In this document: piece by piece, positions 2,147 through 40,334 of the stretch | Position numbering within the stretch: position 1 is the stretch's first letter | Layout of the letters: every line of letters starts with the position of its first letter | The notes under the pieces: model-generated | What the model saw: the letters and a program-made list of their open reading frames with translations, nothing else | What the model was told of the DNA's origin: nothing | Database searches by the model: none | Translations under genes and position numbers: made by a program | Assembly: GCA_014729915.1 (NCBI GenBank) | Contig: WJJD01000155.1 | Span: 1-40,334 of the forward strand | Reading direction: 5' to 3' | DNA length: 40,334 nt | From: Candidatus Woesearchaeota archaeon | GTDB lineage: Archaea; Nanobdellota; Nanobdellia; Woesearchaeales; GW2011-AR15

Positions 2147-2268
2147 TGGACCCGGAGGGACTTTCATATCCAAAGCAATGCTTTTGGATTTTTGAACCCT
2201 CGACCCACTGCTTAGAAGGCAGTTGCCCTTTCTGTCTTAATAAAGAATCCAGACTAGGCTACGGGTCC
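2147..2268 (-). tRNA. tRNA-Arg(TCT) with two non-canonical introns (2229..2247 in D-loop, 2161..2190 in T-loop)
   Basis: Acceptor GGACCCG/CGGGTCC, anticodon arm ACTGC-CTTCTAA-GCAGT (anticodon TCT), T-stem GAGGG/CCCTC; insertions in D- and T-loops each form BHB-like folds; the spliced product is a 73-nt cloverleaf with T-loop TTCAAAT. Confidence 0.85.
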
Positions 2269-2510
2269 TTAACCTTTGAAGAATAAATATCTTGTTTTAA
2301 AGTTTTTTGTTTAAATCCACTTCTCCATGGAAAGATCATCATAATATTTCCCTTGTATTTGATCTCTTTTTTAAAAACAGCTGCTTTTTTATGGATTAAT
2401 TTTCTTTTTTCTTCAAATAAAACTTTTTATAATTACAGAAAGTTATAAAAGTTATAAATTTCCAAAAAGTTTATATTATACAACTCATTTTAAATAGCCG
2501 GGTGTTAATA

Positions 2511-2750
2511 ATGGATGTAAGTATTAAAAACATTCCTGACAAGGATTGGAGGGCATTTAAAGTTGAGGCTGCAAAGCACAATCTAAAGACAGGAGAGATG
2601 TTTTCAAAGCTAGTAAATGAGCACAAAGAAAAATGTGAAAAGGGCAACTGGAAAAAATTTTTATACAGTGAAAAAACATTGACAGAAAAAGACACTAAAA
2701 TCATAAAAGAATCTATAAAAATATTCAGAAGAGATACTGAATTTAGATGA
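2511..2750 (+). CDS. vapB: VapB-like antitoxin
   Basis: 79-aa ORF (ATG at 2511) with N-terminal ribbon-helix-like segment; 4-nt overlap (ATGA) with the downstream PIN toxin. Confidence 0.65.
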   Translation: MDVSIKNIPDKDWRAFKVEAAKHNLKTGEMFSKLVNEHKEKCEKGNWKKFLYSEKTLTEKDTKIIKESIKIFRRDTEFR

Positions 2751-3148
2751 AATTATTAAAATATATTTTGGATACGAATATCTATATTGAAATAGAAAGA
2801 AATAATCAATCTATTAAAAAAAAAATCGAGAGTTATCTTAAAAAAAAAAATGGACTTCTTTATTTAACTTCACCGACATATACTGAATTATTTTATGGAT
2901 TTTTAAAGAGAAATCCTAAAGATATTAAAAAAAAGCTTGAAAAGTTAAACAGCCTGCCTGTATTAAATACTTCTAAGAGAAGTGCATTAATGTGTGCAGA
3001 TTTAAAACATAATCTTGAAAAAAAAGGAAAAATAATTCCGATATTTGATCTTTTTATTGCAAGCATAGTTATTGCAAACAAAGGAATTTTAATTACAAGC
3101 GATCCGCATTTTAAAGAGATTGGTAAAATTAGGTTAATTTATTTATAA
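2747..3148 (+). CDS. vapC: VapC-like PIN-domain ribonuclease toxin
   Basis: PIN acidic residues: LDTNIYIEIE, TYTELFYGF, IFDLFIASIV, TSDPHF. Confidence 0.85.
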   Translation: MKLLKYILDTNIYIEIERNNQSIKKKIESYLKKKNGLLYLTSPTYTELFYGFLKRNPKDIKKKLEKLNSLPVLNTSKRSALMCADLKHNLEKKGKIIPIFDLFIASIVIANKGILITSDPHFKEIGKIRLIYL

Positions 3149-25895: not shown

Positions 25896-27917
25896 ATGAA
25901 AGAGACATATTACTGGGCAGACAAGATTGCTAAAAAAGTAATTAAAAGAGTAAAAAATTCTGATATTTTAAAAAAATTAGTTAAAAATAACAAATACGGA
26001 TACTTAGTGTATGATGAAAAAACTCCGTCAGGAGTTATTCATATCGGATCTGGAAGAGGGTGGATTATACACGATGTAATTGCCAAAGCATTAAGAGACA
26101 GGGGAGTGAAAGCATCATTTGTGTTGTCAAGCGATGATATGGATCCTTTGGATAAGGAATCAAAAGAATTAACAAAAGAACAAAATGAAAAATATATGGG
26201 TGTTCCATTCAGATATATTCCAAGCCCGAAAAAAGGTTATGAAAGTTACGCAGATTATTATTTTTCACAGGCAACTGAAAAATTTGATGAATTCGGAATA
26301 AAAGCAATTCTTGAAAGTACAGGACAGGAGTATGAAAAAGGAACATTTAACAAAACAATTAAAATCGCTCTTAATAATGCTCATAAGATTCAAGATATTT
26401 ATAAGAAATTATACGGAGATGATGTTGATGCCGCTAAAAGACTTCCCTTTAATGTAAGATGTCCAAAATGCGGAAAAATAGCGACCACTCTTGCATCAAA
26501 ATGGGATAAAAAAAAGGAAAAAATATATTTTGAATGCAGGGATGATGTTCAGCCGTGGGCAAAAGGATGCAATACAAAAGCATGGATCTCTCCTTACAAC
26601 GGCAACGGAAAATTTCCCTGGAAAGTTGAATGGCCTGCAAAATGGCTCTCAAAAGGAGTCATTGTTGAAACAGCTGGAAAAGACCATTTTACTAAAGGCG
26701 GCTCCAGGACAATCGGGTGCATGATTTCAATGGATGTCTTTAATTATCCACCACCTTATCCGTCAAAAGGATATAAAACCGGACCTGGATATGAATGGGT
26801 AACTGTAGGCGGAAAATCTATGTCAACTTCCCGAGGCAGAGGATATTCGTTTGCAGAGTCAACCGAACTTGCTCCGGCATCAATTTTACGGTACATGCAG
26901 GTTAAAGCAAGACCTAATGCTGTGATTGATTTTCAGCCATATGAATCAAATGATCTTATTTTATTGTATGAAAGGTATGACCGCACAGAAAGGATTTATT
27001 TTGGCAAAGAAAAAGTTGACAAAAAAGAGCAAGCAAAGCAAAGAAGAATCTATGAGTTGAGCCAGATTGGTAAGATTCCAAAAAAATTACCTCCCCAGAT
27101 TCCTTTTACACATGCAGCTGTTTTAGCTCAGATTTTTAAAAGCGATAAAGATGTAATTGAAAATTTAAAAGAAACCGATCATCTTTCAGATAAACTCAGC
27201 ACAAAGGAGATAGAATATGTTAAAGAAAGAATTGATTTTGCTAGAAAATGGGTAAAAGAATTTGCTTCTGACAGATATAAATTCTCATTGCAAAACAAAG
27301 TTTCTGATGACATCGTTTTTTCTGAAAAACAGGTAAAGGCTCTTCATCTGCTCTCAGAAAAATTAAAGGAAAGTAAATATAATGAAAAAGAATTGTATAA
27401 TGAGTTTTATAGAATCTGCAAAAAGATTGATATTAAAACCAAAGAATTTTTCCAGGGAGCTTATCTTGCTCTTCTTAACAAAAAAAGAGGACCAAAACTA
27501 GCACCATTTATTCTGGCTGCAAAACAAAAGTCGATAGAATTATTCTCAGAAGCCAATGTTTCCAAAAGAAAAAATAAAGAAGAGAACATGAACATGATTG
27601 AGTTTGATGATTGGAAAAAATTAGAACTAAAAGTCGGCAGGATAATTAAAGCTGCTAAAATTAAAAAAGCTGACAAATTATATAAATTAATTATTGATAT
27701 CGGAAAAAAAGAGCCGATCCAGATTGTTTCAAGTCTTGTTGATTATTATTCAATTAAAGAATTAATTAACAAAAAAGTCATTGTACTTGTAAATCTGAAA
27801 CCAGCAAGATTCAAGGGAGAAATTTCTGAGGGGATGATTCTTTGTGCTGAAAATAAGGATAATTGTGTTCTTTTAAGTGTTGACAAAGATATTAAACCAG
27901 GAAGTCCTGTAACCTGA
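25896..27917 (+). CDS. lysK: Class I lysyl-tRNA synthetase fused to a C-terminal Trbp111/EMAP-like tRNA-binding OB-fold domain
   Basis: HIGSGRGW and KSMSTSRG signature regions of class I LysRS; C-terminal FDDWKKLELKVGRIIKAAKIKKADKLYKLIIDIG...ISEGMILCAENKDNCVLLSVDKDIKPGSPV. Confidence 0.93.
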   Translation: MKETYYWADKIAKKVIKRVKNSDILKKLVKNNKYGYLVYDEKTPSGVIHIGSGRGWIIHDVIAKALRDRGVKASFVLSSDDMDPLDKESKELTKEQNEKYMGVPFRYIPSPKKGYESYADYYFSQATEKFDEFGIKAILESTGQEYEKGTFNKTIKIALNNAHKIQDIYKKLYGDDVDAAKRLPFNVRCPKCGKIATTLASKWDKKKEKIYFECRDDVQPWAKGCNTKAWISPYNGNGKFPWKVEWPAKWLSKGVIVETAGKDHFTKGGSRTIGCMISMDVFNYPPPYPSKGYKTGPGYEWVTVGGKSMSTSRGRGYSFAESTELAPASILRYMQVKARPNAVIDFQPYESNDLILLYERYDRTERIYFGKEKVDKKEQAKQRRIYELSQIGKIPKKLPPQIPFTHAAVLAQIFKSDKDVIENLKETDHLSDKLSTKEIEYVKERIDFARKWVKEFASDRYKFSLQNKVSDDIVFSEKQVKALHLLSEKLKESKYNEKELYNEFYRICKKIDIKTKEFFQGAYLALLNKKRGPKLAPFILAAKQKSIELFSEANVSKRKNKEENMNMIEFDDWKKLELKVGRIIKAAKIKKADKLYKLIIDIGKKEPIQIVSSLVDYYSIKELINKKVIVLVNLKPARFKGEISEGMILCAENKDNCVLLSVDKDIKPGSPVT

Positions 27918-30990: not shown

Positions 30991-31064
30991 CGTCCCTGCC
31001 GGGATTTGAACCCGGGTCTCAAGATCCGCAATCTTGCGTTCTGTCCAAGCTAGACTACAGGGAC
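30991..31064 (-). tRNA. tRNA-Arg(GCG)
   Basis: GTCCCTG/CAGGGAC acceptor, anticodon arm CAAGA-TTGCGGA-TCTTG, T-arm CCGGG-TTCAAAT-CCCGG; no intron. D-stem contains a C12-A23 mismatch. Confidence 0.88.
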
Positions 31065-35661: not shown

Positions 35662-38600
35662 TCATCCAAACGCAAATCCTTTCCCGTTTTCACAGCCATT
35701 TGTAGCATATAAATCATCATACGGTAAAGAAGAAATTGAATTTGGTTTATACGGGTTACAGTTATATTTTATTAGCCTGCAGGAGCATTCGTTTTCTTCA
35801 TAACCTTCTGCCTTATCTGGGTTGTTTATTCCTCCTAAAGGATAATCAATACAATACCTTTTTGTATCCTGGTTATATTTTTCACATTTATAAACTTTAA
35901 TTATATCCCATGCCCAATAATCAAAATTTGGTGGATTATTATCAGCATCAACATAATGATGATAAGTTGCTTTTGCGCATGTATCTGTAAGTTTTTTTAC
36001 TGCATATGTTAGATCTGCTACATCTTTAGACGCAATATATATGCTTCCTTTTTCTGATAAGCTTGGTGAAAGGCTAGTATCATAGCATCCTGTACTAGGA
36101 ATAATGTCTTCACGAATATTATTAATTGCATTATTAATTTCAGGAGTGTTTGCACAGCAAAGAGTATAATGCTTTTCAGTTTTTGAAACTTCTTTACACC
36201 TCTCTACATAATTGCCGTTTTGTGTATCAAAATTACATAAATTATTGTTGGGTGTAAAATCAGCATAATGGCATTTTTCATGGCCTGTACCAGAATTTCC
36301 CATCAAGGTAATTGGAGAGGTATCGCCATCAGTATAGCAATTTCTTTCAATTCCTGATAACTTACTCCAATCAGACCAGGCTATACTGCTCCAGTCAGAC
36401 ATCCATGCATGAATATCTGAAAAATCCCTGTTCTGCCTGTAAGTGTCATATTCCCAGATTTCACACACTCTCCATCCATCCTGGCAATTGCTTTCTGCAT
36501 TTGAATATGTAACTAAATTATTGCAGCTCACACATTTTCCATCTGATAATACTGTCCTAGGTATGCCATATTCACATCCATAATTGCATCTTAAGTGGCT
36601 CTTGCAATCAGGATCATCGCAATCAACTAAATTATCACAGTCATTATCTATTCCATCATAACAGAAATTATAAACATTCTCTATTTTAAATTGTGAACTG
36701 CACTGGTCTATGCATTTTTGCTCAGGATTAATTATTTGCGAGCAGGTATCACAGGCATTTCCATACTCATCTCCGTCACTGTTTTCCTGGTCAGGGTTAT
36801 AAATATAAGGGCAGTTATCATCAATGTTTAAAATATTGTCAGAATCTATATCCCCATCACAGGCATCTCCTTTCTGGTCATCGTCAATATCTGATTGATC
36901 ATAATTAAATATATCCTGGCAATTGTCACATGTGTCTCCAATTCCATCGTTATCTGAATCCTCCTGGTCAGGGTTAAAAACAAGCGGACAGTTATCTTCC
37001 TCATCAGGAATGCTGTCATTGTCTTTGTCAAAATCACATACATCTCCTATGCTGTCATTATCAGAATCTTGTTGATTTGGATTATAATCATATGGGCAGT
37101 TATCGCACATATCTCCTATGCCATCTCCTTCAAATACTTTGCATGCGCATAACCTTTTAACTGTTCCGGCATTATAATCACATTTTTGATATTTGGTTGA
37201 CTCAGTCCTGTAGTAGCAGGTTGACCCATCTTTTTCTGCTCCCGGAAGATGCCAGTGCCAGCTTGGATTTTCTATTATTTCAGTTGCTGATTTACAAGTG
37301 CAGTCAGGAACAAAGTGCTTTAATATTGAACATTGTTCATCATCATTCCAGAGGGCTTTTCCTTGTGCATCACCAAGACACTCTAACCCATTATTCTTTT
37401 TACAGACTTCTGTGCATGGGTCTCCCCCAAGATCACTATAAAACCAGCAATAATTATTTTTAAAATAACCTCCTTTTAAAAAACATTTTTCTTTCTGAAA
37501 CTCTAAACTAGGCAGATCAGAATCAAGTTGATAAGGGTTATATATTTCAGGGCAATTATCACAAACATCACCTATTTTATCCATGTCAAGATCTTCCTGC
37601 ATTTGCTGGCATTCATCTTGACATTTGTTAAATGCTATTACTTCAGAGACACATTGTTCATTGTTATAAGTTCCTCTAAAGCAAGTTCCAACTAAAGGCC
37701 CATTTGCCTTTTTTTGACAATTATCACATGCATCTCCAATACCATCATTATCATAATCATTAATGCCTGAAGCAAGACAAATAAAATTATTGTTTTGATA
37801 ATCTGTAAATTTACCAATTAAGCAATCAGAATCATCACAGTCTCTTTTTTCATAACAAAAATCCATGCAGCACCCAATACCTATATTATTTGACTTATTA
37901 TAACAATTTATTTCATCTTCACTGCAGGTTTTCGTGCAGGTTGGAAGTTTTTTTCCAACACCCCAGTTACAAAATTTATCATTATCCTTATCTTTGCATA
38001 ATATGTTATAAGAGCTAGATGACTCAAACGGAGTGATTATTTGGACGAGGTCTAGGTTTTCAACATTTGTCTTTAGGTTTAAATATCCATATTCCCCCCA
38101 GTATTTACCCCAACTCTTTTCTTCATCTACCATAGACATTGGACCCCAACTATTTTTAAAAATCCAGATTGTTTTTCCATCATTATTATCTATGTCATAG
38201 CCAATTAATGTCATTGAATGTAAAAATGGAATAACTGTTGCCTCTAAAGGGCCATATTTAATGATTTTTTCTTTAATAAATTCCTCTGTTAAACCACTGT
38301 ATGCAGTATGGTGTGCATAATCATCAAAAGAAATTGCGTTTATTCCATTATTAATTAACTCTGAACAAGGAACATCCTTAAAATTATTTGGACAGCCATA
38401 ATCTTTTGCAATATATGGCATAAAAGAGCCTTCAATTATGCATTTATCTGATACAAACTTTATCGAAAGCCATGTACCTCCTTCACAAGATCCAATGTCC
38501 ATTTTGTAATCATTATCATATCCGCAGGATAGTAAATATTGTTCAGAGAGATTAAGGTCAATATGCTGGTTATAAAATAGGTTAAATACAGTTTCAATAG

Positions 38601-40334
38601 AGCCAACACTCCCAAAAGCCCAGCAGCTTCCACACATACCTTGATCTTTAACATCAGTAATCCATCCATCTGATGGAATAATATAAGAACCAAAAGGATA
38701 AGTAATTACTCTTGGTGAATCATAATAATCTGAATATGACTTATTTGCGCCATGGACACTTCTCCAATCCCATTTTTCAGGAAGATTATTAACCTTGTTT
38801 GGATTTAATGGTTTGTTATATGGCCCGGACATATCAAATATTCCTCCCTGATAATATTCATAACCTTTAAGGTTTGGTAAAATCCTTACTGCTATAACCT
38901 TGTTTTTGATATCCCTAATATCCCCGTTTTGATCAAAGAATACATCTTTTCCGAGAATTATTTTGGTCTGATTTTCTACATTAATAAGATAAAAAATGTC
39001 ATCATTGTTTTTTTGAAGAAATGAGCCTCTAATACTATTATTCACTAAAAATAAATTAAAATATCTTTTTTTGTTTTCATACATTAAACTAGAAAACATA
39101 GTTTGTGCAGGGTTCCATCTTATTCCATTTTTTTGTTTATTTTTTAAGATATTGTTAAATTTTTCATTCTCATGTATTTTTTTTTTTCCCTGGATTAAAG
39201 ATGCTATTTTTTCATTTGACAATAAGTTTTTATTTGATTTATCTTCATAGGTGATTATTACTGAATCTAAAACGATTGTTGCATCTTCTATTTCAGCTCT
39301 TATTGAATCTAACACAATGGGCTTAAAAATACAGCTCTCATCACAGTATTTTTCAAATTTAATATTTACATGATTATTATTAATTAAAGGATTAGCTTCA
39401 AAAATAATATATTCTTTTACTAACCCGTCACCATTTTTTCCTCTTAATACAAGTCTAGCAAGACTTGTGTAATTATTATTTAGACTAAGGTATCCATTTA
39501 CTCTTAAAGATATAATCTTTTTATCTAAATTTCGTATAGTGTTTGTATCAATTAAATCTACAAATCTAACCTGTACGGTATTTGTGAATGTCTTTTTGTT
39601 ATTTGTAATATTCCATTTATTGTTTATTACAGAGTTATATTTTTCCTCATTTTGTTCTGATAATTGTGATGCTATACTTGCATTCAGATATTGTTTTAGT
39701 GTTTTTAGATCCTTAGAATCAAAGATACTATTATACATTTTTTCAAATTTTAAAGGAGGGTTATATTCTTTTGTTAACAATTGTTGACTACATTCACTTA
39801 ATCCACTTTTATCAATTATTATCCCATACTCATTATAATTATACAAAGTTGATCCGCACTTGTACTCATCAATTTCTATATCTTTATAGCAGTAATACTC
39901 TCTTACATATTCAGTTCCATCAATTGTTGTAATGCAGTCATTATATATCCTGCTGCTATCCACACATGTTCCATTTGTGAAGATTTCAGCATTTATTTCT
40001 TTAGAATAATCTGAATTATGGCAATTTCCAAAACTCTTTCCTTGTTCTTCTGTTATGCCTTTTGTTATTTCACAGATTGCGCAGTATCCTGTTTTTTTTT
40101 CTGCAGTGCACTCATATTCTGGGCTTATATAGCTTCCTAAGCCCTGGCCGCAGACTAAGTCTAGTTCTTTGTTAGGCTCATCTAATTCTATGTTGCACCA
40201 TGACCTCTGCTCTCCTGTCAAGTCATGGCAGCTGTCTTTTAGAACGCAGGATAAGGGAGCTTTTTCTTTATTATTGCTATTATTGTCACAAGTACAGGAA
40301 ACAGTTACTCCTTTTCTGGTTTTTACTGGAGTGC
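35662..40334 (-). CDS. Giant secreted papain-family (C1A) cysteine protease with thrombospondin type-3-like Ca-binding repeats; 5' end outside the window
   Basis: Catalytic-type DQGMCGSCWAFGS, LHSMTLIGYD, FKNSWG; multiple DxDxDxIGDxCDNCP repeats; frame remains open from 40221 to the window end, so the listed start is not the true start. Confidence 0.92.
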   Translation of the reverse strand, partial: TPVKTRKGVTVSCTCDNNSNNKEKAPLSCVLKDSCHDLTGEQRSWCNIELDEPNKELDLVCGQGLGSYISPEYECTAEKKTGYCAICEITKGITEEQGKSFGNCHNSDYSKEINAEIFTNGTCVDSSRIYNDCITTIDGTEYVREYYCYKDIEIDEYKCGSTLYNYNEYGIIIDKSGLSECSQQLLTKEYNPPLKFEKMYNSIFDSKDLKTLKQYLNASIASQLSEQNEEKYNSVINNKWNITNNKKTFTNTVQVRFVDLIDTNTIRNLDKKIISLRVNGYLSLNNNYTSLARLVLRGKNGDGLVKEYIIFEANPLINNNHVNIKFEKYCDESCIFKPIVLDSIRAEIEDATIVLDSVIITYEDKSNKNLLSNEKIASLIQGKKKIHENEKFNNILKNKQKNGIRWNPAQTMFSSLMYENKKRYFNLFLVNNSIRGSFLQKNNDDIFYLINVENQTKIILGKDVFFDQNGDIRDIKNKVIAVRILPNLKGYEYYQGGIFDMSGPYNKPLNPNKVNNLPEKWDWRSVHGANKSYSDYYDSPRVITYPFGSYIIPSDGWITDVKDQGMCGSCWAFGSVGSIETVFNLFYNQHIDLNLSEQYLLSCGYDNDYKMDIGSCEGGTWLSIKFVSDKCIIEGSFMPYIAKDYGCPNNFKDVPCSELINNGINAISFDDYAHHTAYSGLTEEFIKEKIIKYGPLEATVIPFLHSMTLIGYDIDNNDGKTIWIFKNSWGPMSMVDEEKSWGKYWGEYGYLNLKTNVENLDLVQIITPFESSSSYNILCKDKDNDKFCNWGVGKKLPTCTKTCSEDEINCYNKSNNIGIGCCMDFCYEKRDCDDSDCLIGKFTDYQNNNFICLASGINDYDNDGIGDACDNCQKKANGPLVGTCFRGTYNNEQCVSEVIAFNKCQDECQQMQEDLDMDKIGDVCDNCPEIYNPYQLDSDLPSLEFQKEKCFLKGGYFKNNYCWFYSDLGGDPCTEVCKKNNGLECLGDAQGKALWNDDEQCSILKHFVPDCTCKSATEIIENPSWHWHLPGAEKDGSTCYYRTESTKYQKCDYNAGTVKRLCACKVFEGDGIGDMCDNCPYDYNPNQQDSDNDSIGDVCDFDKDNDSIPDEEDNCPLVFNPDQEDSDNDGIGDTCDNCQDIFNYDQSDIDDDQKGDACDGDIDSDNILNIDDNCPYIYNPDQENSDGDEYGNACDTCSQIINPEQKCIDQCSSQFKIENVYNFCYDGIDNDCDNLVDCDDPDCKSHLRCNYGCEYGIPRTVLSDGKCVSCNNLVTYSNAESNCQDGWRVCEIWEYDTYRQNRDFSDIHAWMSDWSSIAWSDWSKLSGIERNCYTDGDTSPITLMGNSGTGHEKCHYADFTPNNNLCNFDTQNGNYVERCKEVSKTEKHYTLCCANTPEINNAINNIREDIIPSTGCYDTSLSPSLSEKGSIYIASKDVADLTYAVKKLTDTCAKATYHHYVDADNNPPNFDYWAWDIIKVYKCEKYNQDTKRYCIDYPLGGINNPDKAEGYEENECSCRLIKYNCNPYKPNSISSLPYDDLYATNGCENGKGFAFG

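Follow-up and report, generated by a model that had tools for sequence, protein, structure and literature searches.

Location and structure of the tRNA-Arg(UCU) gene

The minus strand of positions 2147-2268 in the window (the whole stretch of DNA analysed, 40,334 nt of contig WJJD01000155.1) holds a tRNA-Arg(UCU) gene whose D-loop and T-loop each contain an insertion, as found by sequence inspection and ARAGORN. No tRNA was called at these positions in the unspliced sequence by ARAGORN or Rfam, and tRNA-Arg(tct) was called by ARAGORN only when both insertions were taken out, not when one was; the double removal restored a normal tRNA, as expected for archaeal BHB tRNA introns. The preliminary description of a tRNA-Arg(UCU) with two non-canonical introns thus agreed with the sequence, the coordinates and the ARAGORN call after double removal. 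Read on the minus strand, the gene begins with GGACCCG TA GCCT AGTCTGGAT, followed by the D-loop intron TCTTTATTAAGACAGAA and A GGGC; it continues with A ACTGC CTTCTAA GCAGT GGGTC GAGGG TTCAAA and ends with the T-loop intron AATCCAAAAGCATTGCTTTGGATATGAAAG and T CCCTC CGGGTCC A. The features are as follows.

2293..2301 (-): candidate TATA box CTTTAAAAC, about 30 nt upstream of the tRNA (sequence inspection)
2247..2268 (-): exon 1, acceptor 5' strand, D-stem 5' strand and D-loop start, ending ...CTGGAT (sequence, ARAGORN on the spliced gene, orthologues)
2230..2246 (-): D-loop intron, best estimate 17 nt, TCTTTATTAAGACAGAA (intronless orthologues, register scan, parallel tRNA-Arg(UCG) intron)
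2191..2229 (-): exon 2, D-arm end, anticodon arm, variable region, T-stem 5' strand and T-loop TTCAAA (spliced-gene analysis)
2214..2216 (-): anticodon TCT (UCU) (spliced-gene analysis)
2161..2190 (-): T-loop intron, 30 nt, position 59/60, near-strict BHB (sequence, BHB scoring, motif in other tRNAs)
2147..2160 (-): exon 3, last T-loop nucleotide (U60), T-stem 3' strand, acceptor 3' strand and discriminator A (sequence)
30991..31064 (-): intronless tRNA-Arg(GCG), the internal comparison in the window (ARAGORN, Rfam)

The CCA end is not encoded in the gene, and similar A/T-rich boxes lie upstream of its orthologues. A split or permuted gene was rejected, since the three exons are contiguous and in order, and so was an assembly error, since the same site is interrupted by different sequences in other tRNAs and in other genomes.

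Among the neighbouring genes, a small ORF followed by a gene for a PIN-domain protein, resembling a VapBC-type toxin-antitoxin pair, lies directly beside the tRNA (2502-3148, +). The window also encodes a class I lysyl-tRNA synthetase to which a tRNA-binding domain is fused at the C terminus (25896-27917, +) and a 1519-aa protein (35662-40221, -) that combines thrombospondin type 3 repeats with a papain-family protease domain and is possibly a secreted or surface protein.

The T-loop intron

The T-loop insertion has a BHB motif at its exon-intron junctions, as archaeal tRNA introns do: an outer helix GAGGG/CCCTC, a central helix UUCA:UGAA, a 5' bulge AAA, a 3' bulge AGU and a strong inner hairpin. 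The motif departs from the strict form by one extra A opposite the 5' bulge, and we call it near-strict. It scored 14/14 (central 4/4, outer 3/3, inner 3/3), a value reached by 0.7% of shuffled introns (P = 0.007), in keeping with the helices, bulges and 30-nt intron (2161-2190) that had been proposed from the letters alone. Site 59/60 is among the known non-canonical intron sites of archaeal tRNAs (PMC4090602), and six other tRNAs of this genome have the same kind of T-loop intron.

The D-loop intron

An insertion of about 17-19 nt is present in the D-loop, with a motif of a more relaxed kind. The preliminary description gave a bulge AAG on the 3' side; folding gave instead a 2x2 internal loop (AG/AA) between GCCT/GGGC and TCTG:CAGA. 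Depending on the register, the central helix had 3-4 of 4 pairs and the inner helix 1-3 of 3, with a weak outer helix; the best score, taken alone, was not above chance (shuffle P = 0.28). Three registers fitted about equally in the scan, leaving the cut sites ambiguous.

Comparison with other genes narrowed the choice. Intronless orthologues have the D-loop AGTCTGGATA followed by GGGC (L132 and L134; L158 for UCG), and the tRNA-Arg(UCG) gene of the same genome (L162) has an identically placed 17-nt D-loop insertion, while its counterpart in another genome of the same genus (G001, L158) is intronless with the same mature D-loop as L162; on the sequences, the L162 intron represents a recent gain or loss. 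Because of these comparisons we prefer a 17-nt intron (2230-2246), which more likely than 19 nt is the actual length, with a mature tRNA of 75 rather than 73 nt. The insertion itself therefore stands as first described, whereas the 19-nt register (2229-2247) and the 73-nt tRNA do not; the alternative D-loop that had been mentioned in passing, with the cut shifted by 1 nt, is the version favoured by the intronless orthologues. The predicted spliced product is AGUCUGGAUAGGGC with the 17-nt intron and AGUCUGGAGGGC with the 19-nt one, and the D-loop expected in the mature tRNA after excision is AGUCUGGAUA.

Since the D-loop motif is relaxed and not individually significant, and the architecture of the splicing endonuclease (described below) predicts narrow specificity, it might be supposed that only the T-loop intron is spliced and that the D-loop insertion stays in the mature tRNA, giving it an unusually long D-loop. 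We consider this improbable: ARAGORN found no correct tRNA with the T-loop insertion alone removed, the orthologues have a 10-nt D-loop, and in several other tRNAs of this genome the D-loop is interrupted by 17-31 nt, in some cases with a well-formed BHB, such as Pro-UGG (14/14, P = 0.0065) and Val-UAC (P = 0.012). The shuffle tests for six D-loop introns gave P = 0.0065, 0.012, 0.047, 0.062, 0.28 and 0.58, which combine to about 0.0006 by Fisher's method (calculated by hand), so that as a class the D-loop BHBs are above chance.

Copy number and the probable need for splicing

A BLAST search with the spliced tRNA found no second Arg(UCU) gene in the genome, which is a metagenome-assembled genome (MAG) of 186 contigs, approximately 94% complete; the gene is thus single-copy in the assembly, a point for which the preliminary description had proposed a check. 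Because of that incompleteness, an intact second gene could lie in the missing part, and the present gene might then be a degenerating pseudogene with another Arg(UCU) gene serving the cell. We regard this as very improbable: the BLAST search found no other copy, none of the stems or consensus positions is disrupted, and many tRNA genes of this genome and of relatives are interrupted in the same way.

AGA accounts for 206 of the 339 Arg codons (61%) in 21 ORFs of the window. As no second Arg(UCU) gene was found, AGA is the main Arg codon, and both EndA and RtcB are encoded by the genome, as expected of a host with archaeal BHB tRNA introns, splicing of this tRNA is very probably essential; that it takes place in the cell is what we infer from the sequence.

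Our preferred reading, to which we assign a probability of about 0.86, is that this is a functional and probably the sole tRNA-Arg(UCU) gene of a woesearchaeal archaeon, both introns being cut by EndA and the exons joined by RtcB into a 75-nt tRNA. The pre-tRNA would fold as a cloverleaf with two additional hairpins at the exon-intron junctions. EndA would cleave the BHB-like motifs in the T-loop (59/60) and the D-loop (near 20/21, with the exact D-loop cut sites as predicted above), its homotetramer presumably handling the relaxed D-loop motif as well, and RtcB would ligate the exons into a standard 75-nt tRNA reading AGA.

Introns in other tRNA genes of the genome

Rfam and pattern searches recognised 29 archaeal tRNA genes in this genome, of which at least 13 have one or more non-canonical introns according to our own annotation. 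The introns are located as follows.

Arg(UCU): D-loop and T-loop
Arg(UCG): D-loop
Glu(UUC): D-loop, 37/38 and T-loop
His: 37/38 and T-loop
Asp: 37/38 and T-loop
Lys(UUU): 37/38 and T-loop
Gln(CUG): T-loop
Gln(UUG): D-loop and T-loop
Pro(UGG): D-loop
Val(UAC): D-loop
Asn: D-loop
Leu(UAG): D-loop and 37/38
Ile(GAU): 37/38 and V-loop

Once spliced, 10 of the 13 were recognised by ARAGORN as the right tRNA; Glu(UUC), Leu(UAG) and Ile(GAU) have one further intron each, read by eye, which was left in during this test. The tRNA-Glu(UUC) gene (G000:C72:38397 region, locus L196) apparently has three introns, in the D-loop (by eye), at 37/38 and in the T-loop. The Rfam model RF00005 detected only about 22-26 tRNAs in the genome, and several of the missed ones were recovered by a search with the T-loop motif; general tRNA scanners can thus under-count tRNAs in DPANN genomes. 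A bacterial-looking tRNA-Gln(CUG) followed by CCA was also found (G000:C44:12733-12803, -), and part of a second copy lies towards the opposite end of that contig (91-156, -); the sequence is possibly a contaminant or mobile element.

Distribution in the order Woesearchaeales

The host lineage is Woesearchaeales (DPANN), and its EndA gene is 69% identical to those of named Candidatus Woesearchaeota MAGs. A strict T-loop pattern (GGTTCRAWN{9,39}YGAAAGTCC) was found in 94 of 149 genomes of the order, with 268 matches against 10 for the control, but in only 14 of 88 genomes from other orders of the class, with 22 matches against 7 (tallied by eye). A looser pattern was dropped because its background across the order was too high (361 matches against 273 for the control). 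The inner hairpins of 48 T-loop introns had a mean of 4.3 bp compared with 1.9 bp after shuffling, and none of 300 shuffled sets was as high.

Orthologues of tRNA-Arg(UCU) are intronless in many other genera (L132-L138 and others), while T-loop introns are present in L139, L149, L151 and L152, 37/38 introns in L150 and L160, and anticodon-stem introns in L154 and in L161, the latter from a genome (G002) of the same genus as the host. The absence of introns from many genera and the anticodon-stem intron in the same genus indicate that introns come and go quickly. In one genome (G171), similar, near-identical 42-nt T-loop introns are present in the Arg(UCU), Ser and Gln genes, and comparable T-loop intron families occur in G158, G219, G173, G240 and G234. 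Such sharing of near-identical introns among the tRNA genes of a single genome is the mark of transposition of the Thermoproteales type, and on the sequences it suggests that tRNA introns spread by copying between tRNA genes.

Splicing endonuclease and ligase

The genome has one alpha-type EndA gene (191 aa, contig C145; L001:1213-1788), as in the alpha4 type with its single alpha gene of about 180 aa. The same arrangement, asked about in the preliminary description, was found in nearly all of 60 relatives, 58 of which exceeded the PF01974 cut-off. In a profile of 52 relatives, Y127, H137 and K168 (the catalytic triad by alignment) are invariant, as are R161 and W188, which align with the Arg and Trp bulge-recognition pair of ARMAN-2, R275 and W384 (PMC12397907); residue 54 is mostly basic (K or R in 43 of the 52). 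The nearest fold to the AlphaFold model (pLDDT 90) was that of the Methanocaldococcus jannaschii enzyme 1A79, with a TM-score of 0.91 by target length and 40% identity. The alignment showed neither the crenarchaeal nor the ARMAN specificity loop in the woesearchaeal profile, where Sulfolobus tokodaii carries several extra residues and ARMAN-2 a shorter insert following 'YG'. An epsilon2 or crenarchaeal type was rejected, as there is no fusion and no loop. The earlier supposition that this lineage has a broad-specificity enzyme like that of Thermoproteales was thus not supported by the gene found, a single alpha-type EndA with an M. jannaschii alpha4-like fold and no loop insert; its specificity may nevertheless be broad, though not by a known architecture.

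According to a review, only (alpha-beta)2 and epsilon2 EndA remove relaxed-BHB introns efficiently (PMC6379350). On this view the loopless alpha-type EndA should have a narrow specificity, and the D-loop intron would not be easy for it to remove: a narrow enzyme might still cleave near-strict T-loop motifs, but relaxed D-loop motifs, if this rule holds, would be cut inefficiently. Two explanations present themselves: relaxed BHBs are tolerated by the loopless single-gene EndA, or the enzyme has a partner that has escaped recognition. A partner could be a beta subunit too divergent to detect, in a classical broad-specificity (alpha-beta)2 enzyme; non-canonical introns usually accompany (alpha-beta)2 or epsilon2 EndA (PMC6379350, PMC4033280), and R161 and W188, both invariant, correspond to the Arg/Trp pair assigned to these types. 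Our alpha profile picked up the beta subunit of Nanoarchaeum equitans at E = 1e-17, yet in this genome and 12 relatives, including one in a single contig (G006), it found alpha only and no beta subunit of the N. equitans type; searches with PF01974 and PF02778 agreed, the latter detecting no beta subunit either, and the crenarchaeal and ARMAN loops are absent. A beta subunit of crenarchaeal type is too divergent for this profile, which reached the (truncated) Pyrobaculum aerophilum beta at E = 0.17 only and did not list that of Aeropyrum pernix. On balance we consider a hidden beta subunit unlikely.

As a tentative proposal, to which we give somewhat less than even odds, the loopless single-gene (homotetrameric) EndA of Woesearchaeales, with its Arg/Trp bulge pair, would excise both strict and relaxed BHB introns. 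Trp188 (Tyr in M. jannaschii) and the basic residue 54 are, as a conjecture, candidates for another route to broader specificity. If this proposal is true, the woesearchaeal enzyme would add another functional class to the archaeal splicing endonucleases, one that let copied introns enter D- and T-loops throughout a DPANN order, contradicting the model in which intron invasion requires an extra loop or a beta subunit.

The RtcB ligase gene (contig C31) contains an intein that has a LAGLIDADG-like domain (G000:C31:14922-17726, -, locus L202), so that the ligase must itself be protein-spliced.

Comparison with known systems

A search of the open-licence literature found nothing relevant on tRNA introns of Woesearchaeota, and no report of introns to this extent in Woesearchaeales alongside a loopless single-gene EndA. 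The individual elements are all of known kinds; what looks new is their extent in this order together with such an enzyme. In published models, non-canonical tRNA introns go with an EndA that has acquired an extra loop or a beta subunit (PMC6379350, PMC4033280, PMC12397907). In Woesearchaeales, a large uncultured order, many such introns coexist with a seemingly plain alpha-type EndA, which makes the coevolution model directly testable.

Among solved enzymes, the M. jannaschii alpha4 EndA (1A79) is the best fold match and likewise has no loop insertion, but it is of narrow specificity (PMC6379350) and has Tyr at the position of the invariant Trp188. The N. equitans (alpha-beta)2 EndA (3IEY) is the closest in sequence (E = 1.6e-39), with a C-terminal Trp in both, but it has a beta subunit (NEQ261), and none was found in the woesearchaeal genomes searched. 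ARMAN-2 (Ca. Micrarchaeum) is also a small DPANN-type archaeon with multiple tRNA introns, and its epsilon2 EndA has the Arg/Trp pair at the bulge-recognition positions (PMC4033280, PMC12397907); that enzyme, however, is a three-unit fusion with an ARMAN-specific loop, neither of which the woesearchaeal EndA has. In the Asgard archaea Atabeyarchaeia and Freyarchaeia, a lineage unrelated to Woesearchaeales, most tRNAs carry introns, often more than one and at non-canonical positions (PMC11291895).

Introns outside 37/38 were initially described to us as best known from Thermoproteales. They are indeed reported there, but they, or multiple introns, are also reported in ARMAN and Korarchaeum (PMC4033280), in Thaumarchaeota (PMC8450103) and in Asgard archaea (PMC11291895). 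The genes of Thermoproteales resemble those described here in their short BHB introns, of which a gene has several, at sites that include 20/21, 45/46 and 59/60, and in the presence of similar introns in different tRNAs (PMC4090602, PMC4033280, PMC8450103). The present host, in contrast, belongs to Woesearchaeales (DPANN), with T-loop site 59/60 a frequent one, and has a single alpha EndA gene without the crenarchaea-specific loop, whereas theirs is a loop-bearing (alpha-beta)2 enzyme. The woesearchaeal intron families match the intron transposition described for Thermoproteales (cited in PMC4033280), and these near-identical families provide a second, independent lineage for studying the spread of tRNA introns.
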